Source of the DNA: Acidobacteriaceae bacterium
GTDB taxonomy: Bacteria > Acidobacteriota > Terriglobia > Terriglobales > Acidobacteriaceae
Length of the DNA stretch: 54,719 bases
Reading direction: 5' to 3'
Assembly (NCBI GenBank): GCA_003131585.1
Contig: PKVW01000016.1
Location: 43,183-97,901 of the forward strand
Shown here: piece after piece, positions 13,286 through 19,723 of the stretch
Position numbering within the stretch: the stretch's first letter is position 1
Layout of the letters: the number at the start of each line of letters is the position of its first letter
Translations under genes and position numbers: made by a program
Notes under the pieces: generated by a model
The model's input: the letters and a program-made list of their open reading frames with translations, nothing else
Told to the model about the DNA's origin: nothing
Database searches by the model: none

Positions 13286-13320
13286 CAGTTCTCAGTTCTC
13301 AGTTCTCAGTTCTCAGTTTT
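13286..13320 (+). repeat. Heptamer array CAGTTCT x5 after the DUF3106 gene
   Basis: Four perfect CAGTTCT units (13286-13313) and one CAGTTTT unit. Read as AGTTCTC on the strand of the upstream gene, it starts 2 bp after that gene's stop codon. An inverted array of the same family lies at 22394-22421. Confidence 0.95.
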
Positions 13321-13383
13321 CAAGCCCTTGGTTCTGGAGCTTTGCCCGGGAAAGTTGCGATGGTTCGGGACGCCGAATGGCGT

Positions 13384-16300
13384 TCAGTGGAAATCGTGCG
13401 AGATGGTCTCCGCTTTCGTAACGAACAGTGGCAGTACGCGCTCCGCTTTGACTGAGATCACATTGTCCTGATTCTGCAGGATGCCTTCGATGGCCAGAAA
13501 CCGTTCTGAGGTCAGCAGCAGGCGGTTGCGGTGGAAAAGATCGGGTGCGACGATCGCGTTGGCCACTCCCGTTTCATCTTCCAGACTGACAAAAACAAAA
13601 CCTTTCGCGGTTCCCGGACGCTGGCGTGTGATTACGCAGCCTCCGATGCGAAGACGCTTGCCGCTGGGAAGGTCGCGGAGTTCGCTGGCCCGGCGAATGC
13701 CCATGGCGTTAAGCCAGTCGCGGCGGTAAGCCATGGGATGCGGTCCCACAGTGAGGCCGGTGCCGTGGAAATCTGCAACCAGGCGCTCTTCGTGGCTCAT
13801 GGGCTGGAGCGGGGAAGGCGAATCGGGCTCGGGCAAACTTTCCAGCAGCGGCCCGGAGCCGCGGATCGCGCGTTCGACCTGCCAGAGAGCGTCGCGGCGG
13901 TGAAGTTGCGAGTACCGAGTACCTGGTACCGAGTGCCGAGATTCCTCCGCTCCTCGCTTGCGCTCGGGGGTCGGAATGACAAGGGTTTTTTCTGTCGTTC
14001 GCGATAATTCCAGGGCTGGAATGACAACGGGTTTACTCGGTACTCGGTACTCGGTACTAGCTACTGAATTCAGTGCGCCGATTTCGGCCAGAGTGGTGAG
14101 TTCGTCCTTGCGCAGCTCTGGAACGCGGCGGGTCAGATCGTGAATGGATGCGAACGGAGCAAGCATGCGTTCGCGCACCAGCGCCTGAGCGGCCTCCTCG
14201 CGCAACCCACGAACGTATCGCAAGCCGAGGCGTAGCGCCGGAGCGAGTACCGAGTACCTAGTACCGAGTACCGAGTACTTAGATTCCTCCGCCCCTCGCG
14301 TGCGCTCGGGGGTCGGAATGACAAAGGTTTTACTGGGTACTGGGTACTCGGTACCCGGTACTGCCTCCAGCGTGCAGGGCCATTCCGACCTCATCACATC
14401 CACGGGCAGCATTTTCAATCCGTGGCGTTGCGCGTCTTTGACGATGGTGGCCGAAGAATAAAAACCCATCGGCTGGTTGTTGAGCAGGGCGGCCGTGAAC
14501 GCGGCGAGGTAATGGCATTTCAAATAAGCGCTGGCATACGCGATCAGCGCGAAGCTGGCGGCGTGCGATTCAGGGAATCCGTAGAGCGCGAAAGATGTGA
14601 TGGAAAGAATGATTTTTTCCTGGGCCTCGGGCAGGATTCCGTTGCGCGTCATGCCGGCGCGAAGTTTGGCTTCGATTTCTTTCATGCGCGCCTGCGATCG
14701 CTTGAAACCCATGGCACGGCGCAAATCTTCCGCTTCGCCGCCGGTGAAGTTGGCCGCGATCATGGCGAGACGCAACAGTTGCTCCTGGAAAAGTGGCACG
14801 CCCAGCGTGCGCTTGAGCACAGGTTCGAGCGAAGGATGCGGATACGTTACCTCCTCCCTTCCCTGGCGGCGCAAGAGAAAAGGATTCACCATCTGGCCGA
14901 CGATCGGCCCGGGCCGGATGATCGCGACCTGCACCACAATGTCATAGAAGCGTTTCGGGCGCAGGCGCGGCAGGCACGCCATTTGCGCCCGGCTTTCCAC
15001 CTGGAACATGCCCACGGTATCCGCCTGCTGTAGCGCGGAATAAACCGCGGGATCATCGGGCGGAAGATGCGCCAGATCGACTTCTTCGTCGTAGTGGTTG
15101 CGAATAAGTTCGATCGAATCCTTGAGCGCGGCCATCATTCCCAGGCCGAGCAGATCGACTTTGATGATGCCCATGTCGGCGCAATCTTCTTTGTCCCACT
15201 GCACCACCACGCGGCCCGGCATGGATGCGGGTTCGAGCGGAACGACCGAGTCGAGCTGTCCCTGGCAGATGACCATGCCGCCAGAGTGCTGTCCGAGATG
15301 GCGCGGCAAATCTTGCACGGCAAGGCACAGCTCGTAATACTTGCGCAGGCGCGGATGTTTGAGGTCGAGTCCGGCATCGCGGAAACGGCGGTCGAGCGCG
15401 TCGTTTTCGTCGCGGAATTCCCAGGTAGCGACGGCGGCAGAAATCTTGTTGAGCGTTCCCGGATCGAATCCCAGGGCCTTGCCCATTTCACGCGCCGCCA
15501 TGCGGTTGCGATAGGTGATGACATTCGCGGTCATGGCTGCGCCACGCTCGCCATAACGACGGTAGACATACTGGATGACTTTTTCGCGCTCGCCGCCGCT
15601 GGGCAGGTCGAGATCGATGTCGGGCCATTCGCCGCGCTCTTCGGAAAGAAAGCGTTCAAAGAGAAGCTCCATGCCGACGGGATCGACGGCCGTGATGCCC
15701 AGCGAATAACAGACGGCGCTGTTGGCGGCCGACCCGCGTCCTTGCGCCAGAATATTTTGTTCGCGGCAGAAGCGGACCAGATCCCAGACGATAAGAAAGT
15801 AGCCGGCAAGATTGAGCTTTTCGATCAGCCCTAGCTCGCGCTCAATCTGGCGACGGGCGCGGGTTTGCATGTCGGTCGTAGCGCGGCTATAGCGCTGCCG
15901 AAACCCTTCCCACGTGCGTTCGCGCAGGAAGGAATTCATGGTCTCGCCTTCGGGAACGGGGTAGCGGGGGAACTGGTAGCCGAGATCGTTGAGCGTGAAT
16001 TCAAGGCGTGAAGAAAGGTCGAGTGTGTTGGTGACGGCTTCGGGAAGGTCGGCGAAGAGTTGCCGCATCTCGTGCGGTGATTTCAAATACCGCTCGGAGT
16101 TGCGCGCCAGCAGCCGGCCAGCGGTAGAAAGTGTGCGGTGATGGCGGATGGCGGTGAATGCGTCGCAAAGTTCGCGATCTTTCGCTGCGGCGTAGCAAAT
16201 GCCGTTGGTGGCTAGCAGCGGAAGATTAAGCGAACGGGCAATTGCGACGGCAGCGCGGTTGCGAGTTTCTTCTTCCCGATGGAAATGGCGCTGCAATTCG

Positions 16301-16932
16301 ATGTACACATTGCCGCGGCCAAAAATTCCAATGAGTTGCTCAATCTGGCGCCGGGCTTCTTCAATGCCGCCCTGCTGTAAGGCGGCGGCCAGCGGCCCGT
16401 CCGCGCCACCGGTCAGGCAGATCAGGCCGTGGGCGTGCTCTTCCAGTTCTTCTTCGCGGACCGCGCCTTCGCCTTTTTTCGCGCGCAACTTCATCTCGGT
16501 GATCATTCGGCAAAGGTTCTGATAGCCCGCGCGGGAGGAAACAAGGAGAGGAAGACGGAATGGTTTGTTATCTCGAGGTTTGTTATCCCGAAAAGCTTTG
16601 TCATTCCGAGCGAAGCGAGGAATCTCTATTCCCTGCACAAATTGCCGGGTATAGGGATCCTTCGACTCCGCAGGTGCTTCACTTCGTGAAGCACCTGCTC
16701 CGCTCAGGATGACAGGGGCAAAGGACGAGCAGGAAATCTCCGTGCCGATGTGCGCCTTGATCCCAAGCTTCTTCGCCGCCAGGTGAAAGCGCGGCGCACC
16801 ATACACGCCGTCGGTATCGAGCAAGGCCGCGGCGGGCATTTTGAGCCGAGCGCAGGCTGACATCAACTCCTCAGGCAAGGAAGATCCTTCAAGGAAGCTG
16901 AAAGCGGAGCGGGCGTGAAGCTCGATGTACAT
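13384..16932 (-). CDS. dnaE2: Error-prone DNA polymerase III alpha subunit DnaE2
   Basis: C-family translesion polymerase, the catalytic member of the ImuA-ImuB-DnaE2 mutasome that copies damaged DNA during SOS mutagenesis. Length is 1182 residues, against roughly 1040-1080 for the family. The PHP domain is N-terminal (HARSAFSFLEG; DTDGVYGAPRFH). The polymerase palm contains PDIDLDLPSG, and an OB-fold region lies near the C-terminus. I start at ATG 16932, where homology begins. The excess length is explained by three in-frame insertions of palindromic repeats, about residues 72-125, 859-896 and 958-1008. The frame has no stop codon and the active site lies outside the insertions, so the protein may be functional. 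It is the last gene of the imuA-imuB-dnaE2 operon. Confidence 0.93.
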   Translation of the reverse strand: MYIELHARSAFSFLEGSSLPEELMSACARLKMPAAALLDTDGVYGAPRFHLAAKKLGIKAHIGTEISCSSFAPVILSGAGASRSEAPAESKDPYTRQFVQGIEIPRFARNDKAFRDNKPRDNKPFRLPLLVSSRAGYQNLCRMITEMKLRAKKGEGAVREEELEEHAHGLICLTGGADGPLAAALQQGGIEEARRQIEQLIGIFGRGNVYIELQRHFHREEETRNRAAVAIARSLNLPLLATNGICYAAAKDRELCDAFTAIRHHRTLSTAGRLLARNSERYLKSPHEMRQLFADLPEAVTNTLDLSSRLEFTLNDLGYQFPRYPVPEGETMNSFLRERTWEGFRQRYSRATTDMQTRARRQIERELGLIEKLNLAGYFLIVWDLVRFCREQNILAQGRGSAANSAVCYSLGITAVDPVGMELLFERFLSEERGEWPDIDLDLPSGGEREKVIQYVYRRYGERGAAMTANVITYRNRMAAREMGKALGFDPGTLNKISAAVATWEFRDENDALDRRFRDAGLDLKHPRLRKYYELCLAVQDLPRHLGQHSGGMVICQGQLDSVVPLEPASMPGRVVVQWDKEDCADMGIIKVDLLGLGMMAALKDSIELIRNHYDEEVDLAHLPPDDPAVYSALQQADTVGMFQVESRAQMACLPRLRPKRFYDIVVQVAIIRPGPIVGQMVNPFLLRRQGREEVTYPHPSLEPVLKRTLGVPLFQEQLLRLAMIAANFTGGEAEDLRRAMGFKRSQARMKEIEAKLRAGMTRNGILPEAQEKIILSITSFALYGFPESHAASFALIAYASAYLKCHYLAAFTAALLNNQPMGFYSSATIVKDAQRHGLKMLPVDVMRSEWPCTLEAVPGTEYPVPSKTFVIPTPERTRGAEESKYSVLGTRYSVLAPALRLGLRYVRGLREEAAQALVRERMLAPFASIHDLTRRVPELRKDELTTLAEIGALNSVASTEYRVPSKPVVIPALELSRTTEKTLVIPTPERKRGAEESRHSVPGTRYSQLHRRDALWQVERAIRGSGPLLESLPEPDSPSPLQPMSHEERLVADFHGTGLTVGPHPMAYRRDWLNAMGIRRASELRDLPSGKRLRIGGCVITRQRPGTAKGFVFVSLEDETGVANAIVAPDLFHRNRLLLTSERFLAIEGILQNQDNVISVKAERVLPLFVTKAETISHDFH
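13910..14061. repeat. Composite palindrome A inside dnaE2
   Basis: Left heptamer array of four units (GAGTACC, GAGTACC, TGGTACC, GAGTGCC; 13910-13937) and a right inverted array (TACTCGG x3, TACTAGC; 14034-14061) enclose about 96 bp. The enclosed core starts ATTCCTCCGC and holds a GTCGGAATGACAA segment found again in copy B. It is translated in frame near the C-terminus of DnaE2. Confidence 0.9.
14245..14358. repeat. Composite palindrome B inside dnaE2
   Basis: Five left units of the GAGTACC family (14245-14279) face four inverted units (TACTGGG, TACTGGG, TACTCGG, TACCCGG; 14331-14358). The 51-bp core is nearly identical to the start of the core in copy A, about 200 bp away. It is in frame and free of stops. 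Confidence 0.9.
16562..16720. repeat. Composite repeat C inside dnaE2
   Basis: A 15-bp tandem duplication (16562-16576 and 16577-16591) is followed by a core with GTCATTCCGAG and GAGGAATCT, the inverse relative of the cores in copies A and B. Then comes a perfect 12-bp stem (16671-16682 with 16686-16697, TTC loop) within a TCCTTCGACTCCG...CTCAGGATGACA element. It is translated in frame inside the PHP domain as GIEIPRFARND and a doubled RDNKP. Confidence 0.88.
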
Positions 16933-17008
16933 TGAGAGATTGAGTGATTGAGAGATTGAGTCATTGCAACCCAATCGCTCAATGACTCAATCACTCAATG
17001 ACTCAATT
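16931..17008. repeat. Octamer inverted repeat filling the imuB-dnaE2 gap
   Basis: Left arm ATTGAGAG, ATTGAGTG, ATTGAGAG, ATTGAGTC (16931-16962) faces right arm AATCGCTC, AATGACTC, AATCACTC, AATGACTC (16973-17004). They form an imperfect stem of roughly 36 bp that occupies nearly all of the 79-bp gap. Its left end includes the first two bases of the dnaE2 start codon, so dnaE2 has no Shine-Dalgarno sequence other than repeat DNA. Confidence 0.93.
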
Positions 17009-17011
17009 TCT

Positions 17012-18685
17012 TCAGTCATAACTTCCTTCCACGAACCAGCTTCCGCCGAGCAGATCGTGCACGAGCCGGCAGAGAACGGCACTGTCTGCATTTTGCAAGA
17101 CGATGTCCCACTCATCGCGCGCCCAGGCTTCCCGCTCCCACCAGTCGCCCGAACTGCGCCACGGGCCGGCTTTCCAGAGCACGCTGCCCTGCATTTCTTT
17201 CTTCTTCGAGCACACCACGCGCACCAGTTCCCCGTTCTCCAAAGTCACAATGGCCCTCAGCGGCGGACGGAACATGCGAAGTGCGGCAACGGCGGATTTT
17301 TCTTCTACCGAAGCTTTTTGACGGTTCGTTTCTGAAATCGCCCCGGGCACGAAGCGCCTCATGCGGAAACCTTCGGCACGGTACGTGTCCAGCAACTCCA
17401 ACGAGCCCACGCGGGCTTCGCCGACCAGTCCGGCAATGCGCGCCAGAGTAAGTTCCAGTTTTTCCGGTTCCGGCGACGGAGGCAGAAACAGGCCACCTTG
17501 GGCGGATCGCGGCCGCGCCGGTTCCGCGGCGAGATGAATTTTGATGATGGGAGGGCCCGGCGGATGCGCATTCAAATCCAGTTGCAGCAGCTTGAGGAAA
17601 AGTTTGGGGTCTAGCATGGGAAGTGGAAGACGAAGAGTGCGACAGAATTTACTTTGGCGGCCGGAAACAAAATGCTGAGCCGGCAATTGAGATTGGGCCG
17701 CGCTATGCAATGCGTCGCTCTCGCTGGAAATCCCGGCGGTTTCGCAAAGTGGATTCGTTCCTGCCAGATTCTGCAGTTCCAGAGTAAGCCGCAATTCCTG
17801 CGTGGTCAGCGCGCGCGAGGCCAAACGGGCACAGATCTGCTCGAGCAGGCGGTGCAGCAGGAAAGCTAGAGGCTCCAGCAGCACGATGGGATATTCCAAC
17901 TCGACTGCTTCTTCAAATACCGCCGGCGCTTCCACCGGGATCAGCGTGCGAGAAGCCCCGCCCCGCGCTAGTTGCTGCCAGCGCAAGCCTTCCTGTCCCA
18001 GGCGTTCGCTCAGAGCAACTTCCGGCAGCGCGGCCAGAGCGCGCAGATGGCGAATTCCCCAGCGCTCGAGAGTTGCGAGCAGACGGGCGGATTCTTTTTT
18101 CCGCTCGTCTTCTTTCTTTTTTCCTTCACGCTCCATACCTTCCCACCGGTCGGCAAACAAAACTTCCACCGGCAGAGATTCCAGAGACTCACCTTCTTTC
18201 CCGGGTGGAATCATGGTCACACCGGAAAAGCCGCGGGCGGCGAGCGCGGCGGCATCGGGATTCGAAGCCACAGCAACATTGGCTTCAAGTCCCAGGCTGG
18301 TAGCGCGTCGAGATATGGCGCGAGCCATTTCCGGCAGCGTGCCGAAAAGAGATTCCATGCCGGCCAAGTCAAGAATCGCCGTGTCGGCTGCGGCATCTTC
18401 CACGCACGGCGAAAATGACTGCGCGCAATCCAGCAGAGCGGCATGCGCCACGGATTCCTGCAATGGAGAACGCGGACGCAGCGTCAACTCCGTACACAGT
18501 TCTGCCTGGGCTTTCGTCATGCCTGGCGTGATGCCCATGCGGCCTGCGCTCTCATTCACGAAAAAAACTTTTTCCAGCGGGGACTTGCCATCAAAAATAG
18601 CCACGACCCGCGCGCGCAACTCCGGCTCAGCACGAAACACCGCCGCCACAGGAAAATTCGGCACGAAGATGCAGGCAAAAGGCAT
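17012..18685 (-). CDS. imuB: ImuB, Y-family polymerase-like mutasome protein
   Basis: 557 residues. It resembles DinB/Pol IV but acts as the hub that links DnaE2, ImuA and the sliding clamp, not as a polymerase. The Y-family fold is visible (MPFACIFVPNFPVAAVF; GRMGITPGMTKAQAEL; ILDLAGMESLFG). The N-terminal metal-binding acid of DinB (HVDMDAFF-type) is replaced by FVPNFP, and the SxDE motif is not preserved, as expected for catalytically inactive ImuB. Residues about 185-200 hold a very basic and acidic linker (REGKKKEDERKKES). It lies between imuA and dnaE2 on the same strand, with gaps of 69 and 79 bp that both consist of the same octamer repeat. Confidence 0.9.
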   Translation of the reverse strand: MPFACIFVPNFPVAAVFRAEPELRARVVAIFDGKSPLEKVFFVNESAGRMGITPGMTKAQAELCTELTLRPRSPLQESVAHAALLDCAQSFSPCVEDAAADTAILDLAGMESLFGTLPEMARAISRRATSLGLEANVAVASNPDAAALAARGFSGVTMIPPGKEGESLESLPVEVLFADRWEGMEREGKKKEDERKKESARLLATLERWGIRHLRALAALPEVALSERLGQEGLRWQQLARGGASRTLIPVEAPAVFEEAVELEYPIVLLEPLAFLLHRLLEQICARLASRALTTQELRLTLELQNLAGTNPLCETAGISSESDALHSAAQSQLPAQHFVSGRQSKFCRTLRLPLPMLDPKLFLKLLQLDLNAHPPGPPIIKIHLAAEPARPRSAQGGLFLPPSPEPEKLELTLARIAGLVGEARVGSLELLDTYRAEGFRMRRFVPGAISETNRQKASVEEKSAVAALRMFRPPLRAIVTLENGELVRVVCSKKKEMQGSVLWKAGPWRSSGDWWEREAWARDEWDIVLQNADSAVLCRLVHDLLGGSWFVEGSYD

Positions 18686-18691
18686 GACGAC

Positions 18692-18751
18692 ATTGACTCA
18701 TTGAGAGATTGAGCCATTGAATCAATGATTCAATCTCTCAATGACTCAATT
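18692..18751. repeat. Octamer inverted repeat filling the imuA-imuB gap
   Basis: Left units ATTGACTC, ATTGAGAG, ATTGAGCC, ATTGAATC (18692-18723) overlap the apex of the right units AATGATTC, AATCTCTC, AATGACTC (18724-18747). This 60-bp palindrome fills nearly all of the 69-bp gap and belongs to the same family as the element at 16931-17008. Confidence 0.93.
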
Positions 18752-18754
18752 CCT

Positions 18755-19723
18755 TCATCCCGCCCAGGCGGTCTTGCTGGCGAAGGTGATTCCGGAGGAA
18801 CGAACCGGCTTACGCTTCAGCCGGGATTGCACTAACTCCGCGGTGATTTCCAGGTCGGTCAGTAATTGCGCGTGGGCGGGCGCCGGGAATCGAGAATCCG
18901 CGGGCTGTTTCATCCCATGTTCTTGCGTCCCTAGCTGTATTAATAAAGAGGAGCAGCTTCCGGCGATGGACTGCCGCTCAACTGCGAGCAACACAGTGGG
19001 CGTATGTTCCACGGCACGGCGGAAACGGAACCACGTGGTCAGCGGAATGCGGCATACTGCTTGTGGCGGCAGATCGCCAAGATCCAGGGCGATCAATCCG
19101 AAGCCTCCGCTTTCGAGCAGCAGGTCCGCCGCGCGCAGAAGTTGTTCCAAGCGATGCTCGTCATGGTACGGTTCCGATTTCACATTTTGTTTCTTCTCCG
19201 TGCCGGAGTCTGCACTGTACACAGCCGAAAAGTGCCTCTGCTGTGAATTTCCTCCGCAGCGCACCCACAGCAACCGGTTTAACTCGACTCCTGCTGCGGC
19301 GACAGACAGCGGATCGAGAGCATCGCTGGCGTCCACGACCACGCAGAATTCCCCGCGCCGGGTGGCAGCGGCCATTGCGGCCAGCAGCACAGTGGTACGG
19401 CCGGAAGAGGCTGGACCGAAAATTTCAGTCAGGCAACCGCGTGGCAAACCTCCGGTAAGCGCATCCATCGCGGCAATGCCGCTGGATACCATCTGTGGCG
19501 AAGAACGCACCGCCAGCCGCGAAGCCGAGGTAACACCGGCGAGTCTCGCATCTTGGGAAAAGACGCCGGAAAAAATTGCGGGGACAACTCGCTGGGGCGG
19601 CCGCCCCTCGGAAAAAAGCTCCGCCCCGGAAGGCTGTGCGCATACTTCGGCAACCTCTTCTTCCATTTCAAAAACAAAAGGGCTGCCCTGGGCCGCCGAA
19701 GTGGAAACCACTGCGGAAGACAT
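18755..19723 (-). CDS. imuA: ImuA, RecA-like mutasome protein
   Basis: 322 residues with a RecA/SulA-type P-loop domain: the Walker A-like GPASSGRTT near residue 100, then FCVVVDASDALDP and LIALDLGDLPP as strand motifs. ImuA joins ImuB in the DnaE2-dependent mutasome. First gene of the minus-strand operon. The start codon follows a GAGGAA ribosome binding site with good spacing, and a promoter lies further upstream. The N-terminal 70 residues are poorly conserved in appearance. Confidence 0.85.
   Translation of the reverse strand: MSSAVVSTSAAQGSPFVFEMEEEVAEVCAQPSGAELFSEGRPPQRVVPAIFSGVFSQDARLAGVTSASRLAVRSSPQMVSSGIAAMDALTGGLPRGCLTEIFGPASSGRTTVLLAAMAAATRRGEFCVVVDASDALDPLSVAAAGVELNRLLWVRCGGNSQQRHFSAVYSADSGTEKKQNVKSEPYHDEHRLEQLLRAADLLLESGGFGLIALDLGDLPPQAVCRIPLTTWFRFRRAVEHTPTVLLAVERQSIAGSCSSLLIQLGTQEHGMKQPADSRFPAPAHAQLLTDLEITAELVQSRLKRKPVRSSGITFASKTAWAG

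Follow-up and report, generated by a model that had tools for sequence, protein, structure and literature searches.

How does a conserved polymerase gene come to carry long palindromic repeats within its reading frame, and does it acquire them once or repeatedly? The question is raised by the dnaE2 gene of an Acidobacteriaceae bacterium, which we analysed within a 54,719-nt stretch of contig PKVW01000016.1 (hereafter, the window). The original prediction, made from the letters of the window, had described two copies of one composite palindrome in frame near the C-terminus of the encoded protein. We find inserts in frame at the same three sites of DnaE2 in related species, with turnover of their contents, a stop-free frame, predicted disorder of the encoded segments and repeats like those elsewhere in the genome. 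Repeated invasion and replacement of repeats at permissive DnaE2 loops, filtered by translation, is the explanation that we consider likely.

Three palindromic inserts in one polymerase gene

The host gene encodes an error-prone DNA polymerase. Its protein scores 1210 bits against the NCBIfam profile of that family (cut-off 939) and the gene lies in an imuA–imuB–dnaE2 cassette (Table 1), both of which place it in DnaE2/ImuC. An AlphaFold model of the protein (41 sequences, mean pLDDT 77.5) agrees with DnaE structures, the best match being 7pu7_A (E 1.6e-57).

Table 1 Coordinates of the imu cassette and of the dnaE2 inserts in the window
Feature	Position	Strand	Remarks
dnaE2 (ImuC), error-prone DNA polymerase III alpha	13384..16974	minus	one open frame, 1196 codons from TTG
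Start of conserved reading in dnaE2			MYIELHARSAFSF
Copy A, site 3 insert	13903..14067	minus	55 residues, flanked by GALN / HRRDALW
Copy A, low-coordinate arm	13909..13940	plus	7-bp array (CGAGTAC)n
Copy A, REP-like core	13940..13980	minus	GTCATTCCGACCCCCGAGCGCAAGCGAGGAGCGGAGGAATC on gene strand
Copy A, second, decayed REP-like half	13981..14033	minus	not in B; sequence inspection
Copy A, inverted arm	14034..14065	plus	7-bp array (TACTCGG)n
Copy B, site 2 insert	14236..14364	minus	43 residues, flanked by CTLE / LRLGLRYV
Copy B, low-coordinate arm	14244..14278	plus	7-bp array (CGAGTAC)n
Copy B, REP-like core	14282..14322	minus	
Copy B, inverted arm	14331..14363	plus	7-bp array (TACTGGG)n
Site 1 insert, PHP domain	16555..16734	minus	60 residues; in-frame palindromic element and 15-bp tandem repeat
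imuB-like Y-family gene, upstream of dnaE2	17012..18685	minus	Pfam IMS, E 5.4e-17
imuA-like RecA-fold gene	18755..19492	minus	Pfam RecA, E 7.6e-17

The two copies described originally, A and B, do share one design of 7-bp array, core and inverted array. They are 87% identical over their first 86 nt (13904-13989 and 14246-14331) and have the core ATTCCTCCGC...GGGGGTCGGAATGACAA in common; their boundaries, with the arms re-mapped here, had been placed correctly to within a few bases, and both lie inside the single open frame, as claimed. Copy A is ~40 nt larger than B by virtue of the decayed REP half, which includes GGAATGACAA (14018-14027). When folded as single strands, A reaches -70.5 kcal/mol and B -64.1 kcal/mol (z -7.6 and -7.5, respectively), values equalled by none of 200 dinucleotide shuffles in either case. 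A third palindromic insert, at site 1 in the PHP domain, had been overlooked; its palindrome ends in GTCATCCTGA and TCGGAATGAC (GTCAT/ATGAC). Compared with outgroup DnaE2, copy A adds ~48 residues to the corresponding loop of L087, and the site 1 insert is ~50 residues longer than the outgroup loop. The extra length of the protein is thus due to all three inserts jointly: A and B are in-frame insertions, as proposed, and do not account for the whole excess.

Occupancy of the three loops among relatives

A protein search of 61 genomes (that of the window, another 36 from its genus and 24 from elsewhere) gave matches in 59. This first search supplied dnaE2 loci for 30 genomes, 28 of them among the 37 genus genomes searched, including that of the window, and a second scan supplied 80 named loci, several from genomes already sampled, for a total of 110 loci. 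Within the 37 genus genomes, the protein search returned no match in G009 and only the other DnaE in G015 and G024.

All three loops are filled almost throughout the genus. Site 1 holds at least 14 residues in 24 of 25 assessable loci (range 14-60; the remaining locus has 10), and sites 2 and 3 are filled in all 25 assessable loci, with 16-116 and 27-70 residues, respectively. The site 2 filling of L063 (~57 residues by eye) stands outside the 74 fillings counted below for stops and is included in the identity, permutation and parsimony sets. The fillings belong to several unrelated families, including 7-bp-armed palindromes with REP cores, 8-bp-armed palindromes built of GAGACACG units, GTCAT REP palindromes and others, and different fillings adjoin identical conserved flanking residues.

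Alignment confirms that the segments are absent from most outgroup DnaE2s. In L087 and L089 the loops at these sites have 5-8 residues, so the inserted residues are not conserved protein sequence shared with orthologues. Among the 80 named loci, the modal loop lengths at sites 1, 2 and 3 are 9, 10-11 and 6-7, as aligned and with 2-3 anchor residues included; site 2 of many outgroups was measured in this way. At least 20 residues are present at two or three sites in 23 of the 80 named loci (seven of these being genomes already sampled, with identical fillings), at one site in 31 and at none in 26. A conserved 27-residue site 1, unrelated in sequence to the genus fillings, occurs in 20 of the 80. 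These 20 loci (in the range L120-L167) include many Acidobacteriaceae, and their common segment of ~25 residues, AVSSFGxRLTPPAWLPHQ..., is a separate, fixed insertion into the same loop.

Ten further stretches from nine genus genomes yielded 13 extra fillings in eight genomes, the stretch from G026 starting after site 3. Site 1 of G033 (L269) is short (~11 residues), and G003 has, along with a filled dnaE2, a second DnaE2 (L272, contig C79) that is 58% identical to that of the window and has short loops at all three sites; filling of the loops is therefore not universal. The genome that houses this second copy, which may be native or a contaminant, is a same-genus draft. Further afield, the distant DnaE2 of a Blastocatellia MAG (L130, JACCVY010000223.1) also has its three loops filled by long, repeat-like segments; their sequence (KSKVQSQ..., VSGAGCQVPGEE...) is unrelated, and they look convergent with those of the genus.

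The shortest complete dnaE2 frame measures 1100 and the longest 1252. A second DnaE, 33-36% identical and probably the replicative enzyme of the genus genomes, is represented by 25 same-genus rows longer than 1000 aa, of which 20 measure 1161-1177 and the other five 1011, 1046, 1183, 1208 and 1255, the two shortest perhaps being truncated by contig ends. ImuB was also considered as a length control and set aside, as many of its frames are cut at locus ends.

Turnover of the fillings between species

Evidence for replacement comes from two close relatives. L062 and L085 are ~91% identical at the nucleotide level over the aligned core and have their fillings at sites 2 and 3 in common (92% and 86% identity), whereas site 1 is occupied by a REP palindrome in one and by an 8-bp-armed palindrome in the other. 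Around site 1, identity in 60-column blocks is at least 88% before the insert and at least 83% after it. Homologous import of a diverged allele could also bring about such swaps; in this pair, the drop in identity is limited to the insert, leaving aside scaffold gaps of 2 and 41 N that all lie outside the sites.

In 14 pairs the core is 86-88% identical. Among their 41 site comparisons, 31 are no more alike than the best of 150 shuffled alignments (mean identity 0.40, maximum 0.58); the remaining ten, at 0.59-0.82, indicate that a relationship persists between some fillings. With 30 rows, including two outgroups, placed on a core tree, parsimony requires a minimum of 10, 13 and 13 changes of element type at sites 1, 2 and 3, respectively, with types assigned coarsely from crude peptide keywords and many falling under 'other'. 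Inserts within a genome are more alike than inserts from different genomes (permutation p 0.003-0.004, whichever two sites are compared). The REP core of G014 is oppositely oriented at sites 2 and 3, and both fillings are open.

These observations bear on another history, in which each site received one ancestral insertion that was afterwards changed only by slippage, point mutation and conversion between sites, with no later invasion. Genus-wide occupancy, with loops seldom short, is what one would expect if the insertions were older than the genus, and the similarity between sites within a genome is compatible with conversion. The same alternative was considered for Rickettsia, by authors who compared a hotspot with a common origin and favoured the latter (PMC3767692). 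Here, however, close relatives hold unrelated families at one site, a core has opposite orientations at sites 2 and 3 of one genome, at least 10-13 changes of type are needed at each site, and a Blastocatellia MAG has unrelated fillings in the same loops. We therefore regard a single ancestral insertion per site as unlikely. More broadly, the question posed for Rickettsia palindromic elements (RPEs), namely hotspot or diverged ancestral insertion, becomes testable with close pairs such as L062 and L085.

Related repeats elsewhere in the genome

Similar repeats are dispersed through the genome of the window, as sampled in 455 kb (400 kb plus the window). Two-unit matches to the 7-mer, with at most one mismatch, number 44 in this genome compared with three for the reversed pattern. 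In the 455 kb, tandem repeats of period 7 account for 27 TRF rows, as against none in one shuffle, and no other period outside the multiples of three is as common (0, 7 and 6 rows for periods 5, 8 and 10; 31 and 41 for periods 12 and 15, which are multiples of three). The genome thus has the period-7 enrichment that characterizes the heptamer SSR/STRR class. Of 22 period-7 arrays in the sample, 15 are intergenic and seven overlap predicted genes. Of these seven, dnaE2 holds three; the remainder are no more than 20 codons from one end of a gene.

The arrays also have the polar placement at gene edges that characterizes this class. All nine classifiable edge arrays, which are intergenic, contain AGT or ACT and lie within 20 bp of a gene edge, present the AGT strand to the left of the gap and the ACT strand to the right; three more edge arrays lack both triplets and were left unclassed for polarity. 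Within dnaE2, the outer 36 nt of the fillings follow the same rule at sites 2 and 3 (50 fillings over both sites), with AGT/ACT counts of 75/2 on the left and 6/35 on the right at site 2 and of 61/1 and 4/63 at site 3. At site 1 this polarity is absent from the outer 36 nt (10/13 left, 8/5 right). Over all 255 gaps of at least 60 bp in the 455 kb, polarity is weak (103/80 left, 66/95 right, with approximate gene starts), and the signal resides in the arrays.

Several gaps of this genome (L046, L021, L024, L053 and L055) are bounded by inward-facing inverted heptamer arrays, some of which start at a stop codon and finish just before the next gene, with spacers that differ among gaps. The 455 kb contains nine REP ends (GTCATTYCGA and variants), of which dnaE2 accounts for four, in three elements. 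Genomes of the genus also hold a REP-like family, GTCATTCCGA...GAGGAATC, with fixed ends and diverse palindromic middles, of which G064 has 58 copies with exact ends.

A RAYT transposase was examined as a candidate mover and is rejected on present data. The genome has 14 Y1_Tnp matches; REP ends were found near none of 12 Y1_Tnp loci, and a 7-mer array near one of the 12, so the association with Y1_Tnp that marks REPs and REPINs moved by RAYTs is not seen at these loci.

Is dnaE2 a preferred target?

The gene does hold more than its share of these repeats. Across 41 genomes, dnaE2 houses no fewer than 17 of the 104 exact GAGTACC pairs and 6 of the 18 exact ACACGGAG pairs, far exceeding its share of the genome. 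The 104 include seven places in G061-G064, genomes in which dnaE2 was not located. Reversed-pattern controls gave two places for GAGTACC and nine for ACACGGAG, so the ACACGGAG count has a real background. We set aside active targeting of dnaE2 as the cause. GAGTACC and ACACGGAG are stop-free on both strands, whereas CAGTTCT, the complement of which holds TGA, occurs at 742 places, and none of the 134 in the seven genomes listed in full is in dnaE2. The excess is accordingly read as the survival of harmless units in permissive loops.

Other genes are affected as well. MnmG accounts for 6 of the 104 GAGTACC pairs, and an alignment of 30 loci reveals repeat-derived variable loops in this protein. 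FolC has inserts in two species at roughly one point. The MnmG proteins of the genus (L204:985-2907, L207:938-3013, L220-L249) have at least three hypervariable loops, which are filled by peptides resembling heptamer or REP sequence, such as VPSTEYRVPSATENSVLGTRSSV. The FolC insert (L010:876-2273; L219:850-2244) is heptamer-coded in the genome of the window and is a partly different repeat in G007.

The inserts might instead be kept for a function, with mRNA hairpins or loop peptides tuning the amount or activity of a mutagenic polymerase. The very stable hairpins of A and B and the excess of GAGTACC and ACACGGAG pairs in dnaE2 would suit this idea, and the part of Di Nocera et al. (PMC3733652) drawn on here includes the speculation that REPs in repair polymerases promote hypermutability. 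Yet no site conserves either sequence or family, a folate gene (FolC) and a tRNA-modification gene (MnmG) are likewise affected, and the absence of CAGTTCT from dnaE2 in the seven genomes listed in full fits a stop-codon filter better than targeting. Retention for function has, in our judgement, a slim chance of being correct.

We give similarly little credence to another possibility, in which the three DnaE2 loops and the similar MnmG loops would be active exchange sites where array-armed palindromes, whatever their sequence, are swapped by dedicated or polymerase-driven template switching. If this were true, DnaE2 or ImuB would perhaps copy the palindromes, making the gene of a mutagenic polymerase a main carrier of the elements that it writes.

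Reading frame, predicted fold and selection

Translation appears to be the filter that the fillings pass. None of the 74 genus fillings (3433 codons) has an in-frame stop, whereas stops occur in 47 and 66 of the 74 when the other two sense frames are read, and in 63, 47 and 62 when the antisense frames are. The dnaE2 frame is undivided in 110 of 110 loci, each with just one, and seven of these loci end at contig ends, and 12 of the 13 later fillings are open and in frame. G034 (L270) loses the frame where its site 3 filling ends on the right, and in G022 (L267) the break falls within the polymerase core, at none of the three sites; both are fragmented MAGs.

In the AlphaFold model, the only internal stretches of more than seven residues with pLDDT below 50 are 87-134, 876-908 and 977-1021, which all fall within the inserts at sites 1, 2 (B) and 3 (A), respectively. 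Sites 1 and 2 link adjacent strands, the low-pLDDT stretch of site 2 lying between strands 868-872 and 911-915, and site 3 links two helices. Outside the inserts, core divergence in the nearest gap-free pairs is ~0.05, 0.02 and 0.29-0.30 at the first, second and third codon positions. Near species differ in the core mostly by third-position substitutions, so purifying selection acts on the polymerase.

Two remaining explanations fare poorly. Excision of the segments from RNA or protein as an intron, an intein or by ribosomal bypass, leaving a DnaE2 of normal length, would suit strong hairpins with edges at fixed codons; it should, however, relax the constraint on frame and stops, of which the 74 fillings have none in frame, and we saw no edge sequence common to all fillings and no intein domain by Pfam, making this reading barely credible. 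An assembly artefact or a decayed gene, which draft status of most of the genomes, contigs terminated by repeats (for example, L080) and the frame breaks of G034 and G022 might suggest, is almost certainly not the answer, given sites filled in nearly all 28 same-genus loci, an undivided frame in each of the 110 loci and core substitutions mainly at third positions.

A model of repeated invasion

In the model of repeated invasion and replacement, short palindromic repeats such as those between genes of the same genome would have entered DnaE2 at three loops that are exposed and tolerate disorder. Copies causing a frameshift or adding a stop would mostly be purged, given the purifying selection on the polymerase, and surviving copies would be translated, presumably at little cost, as disordered loop peptides. 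Occupied loops could then be overwritten again and again by other repeats, often with the recurrent design in which a 7- or 8-bp unit forms an array that is followed by a spacer, with or without a REP core, and by the inverted array. As a consequence of such overwriting, related species would come to have unrelated fillings at identical places. Dispersed palindromes would most likely move by template switching or by gene conversion with one another while DNA is replicated or repaired, a route that we favor because no RAYT gene flanked by these repeats was found. Palindromes with tandem arms may be natural spots for slippage and template switching, and could grow, invert or exchange in this way.

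There are several implications. First, in this one genus, the results indicate that short selfish or by-product repeats can refill the same loops of conserved proteins repeatedly, with frame and predicted fold surviving. Second, they link three things that have been described separately, namely REP cores, polar 7-bp arrays at gene edges and in-frame palindromes.

Relation to known repeats

The kind of element is already known, as RPEs occur in frame and REPs have been found inside DnaE2 and within larger palindromes (PMC3767692, PMC3733652). RPEs are palindromes of ~100-150 bp that sit in frame within numerous genes, that of DNA polymerase III alpha among them, and in Rickettsia japonica and its relatives this gene is one of the loci occupied by different RPE groups in different species (PMC3767692). 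With outer arm ends 157 bp apart in A and 120 bp apart in B, the inserts have the size and palindromic character of RPEs, and like them occupy genes whose orthologues are without the insert; RPE peptides are further described as lying in solvent-exposed areas, and an ATGAC motif is reported (PMC3767692). The differences, measured against the same sections, are that the arms here are tandem arrays of 7 or 8 bp, that the host is acidobacterial and that three loops of DnaE2 are filled at once by clearly unrelated families. The resemblance to RPEs suggested originally is thus supported as to behavior: the inserts work like an RPE and are not filed as one, their host not being Rickettsia.

GTAG and CGTC REPs have been reported inside replication and repair genes, with DnaE2 named among them (Di Nocera et al. 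2013, PMC3733652). In the text of that paper used here, recB of two Xanthomonas carries different REPs at approximately the same site, REP dimers are nested in larger palindromes, and TGTC variants of the CGTC tag are known. The superfamily is recognized by an unpaired CGTC, with TGTC and CCTC variants allowed, and AT in the first two stem positions. By eye, the core ends of A and B have TGTC followed by AT; the single stem of 8-9 bp with a loop of 4-5 nt is not seen in these two cores, which extend for ~37 nt beyond the tag and whose stem is interrupted. Those parts of PMC3733652 describe no tandem-array arms, and the same-site insertion reported there concerns one gene in two species, as compared with three sites in most of 28 loci here. 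Because REPs in DnaE2 have been published, the claim that the element seems new fails for REP insertion in this gene and applies at most to the heptamer-armed design and to the turnover at three loops. A literature search by title and abstract opening, of incomplete coverage, returned no match for heptamer-armed palindromes in acidobacterial genes, nor for the 7- or 8-bp-armed design inside genes together with genus-wide exchange at three fixed loops.

Tandem 7-bp repeats have precedents of their own. Those of Xanthomonas and Nostoc are chiefly intergenic and G-rich (GGGNATC; Rehm et al. 2015, PMC4692102), and, in the passages of that paper drawn on, obey the same orientation rule, with the sense strand right after a stop codon and the antisense right before the next gene. 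By contrast, the units here are GAGTACC, CAGTTCT and others, and some are inside conserved genes. The TAACTGA repeats of Beggiatoaceae are mostly intergenic 7-bp direct repeats, with a few that lie in ORFs and are open in a single orientation (MacGregor 2015, PMC4679880); they differ from the present arrays in being direct, with one indirect case reported in the excerpts used, and in that their in-gene sets are mainly at protein ends.

Arrays also lie around the cassette of the window. Tandem 8-bp arrays (ATTGAGAG, CATTGACT) occupy 16930-17007, at the start of dnaE2, and 18691-18750, between imuB and imuA. A (CAGTTCT)5 array at 13286-13322 lies 2 bp past the upstream gene and just beyond the 3' end of dnaE2, and in G014 similar arrays are likewise placed just outside the gene.
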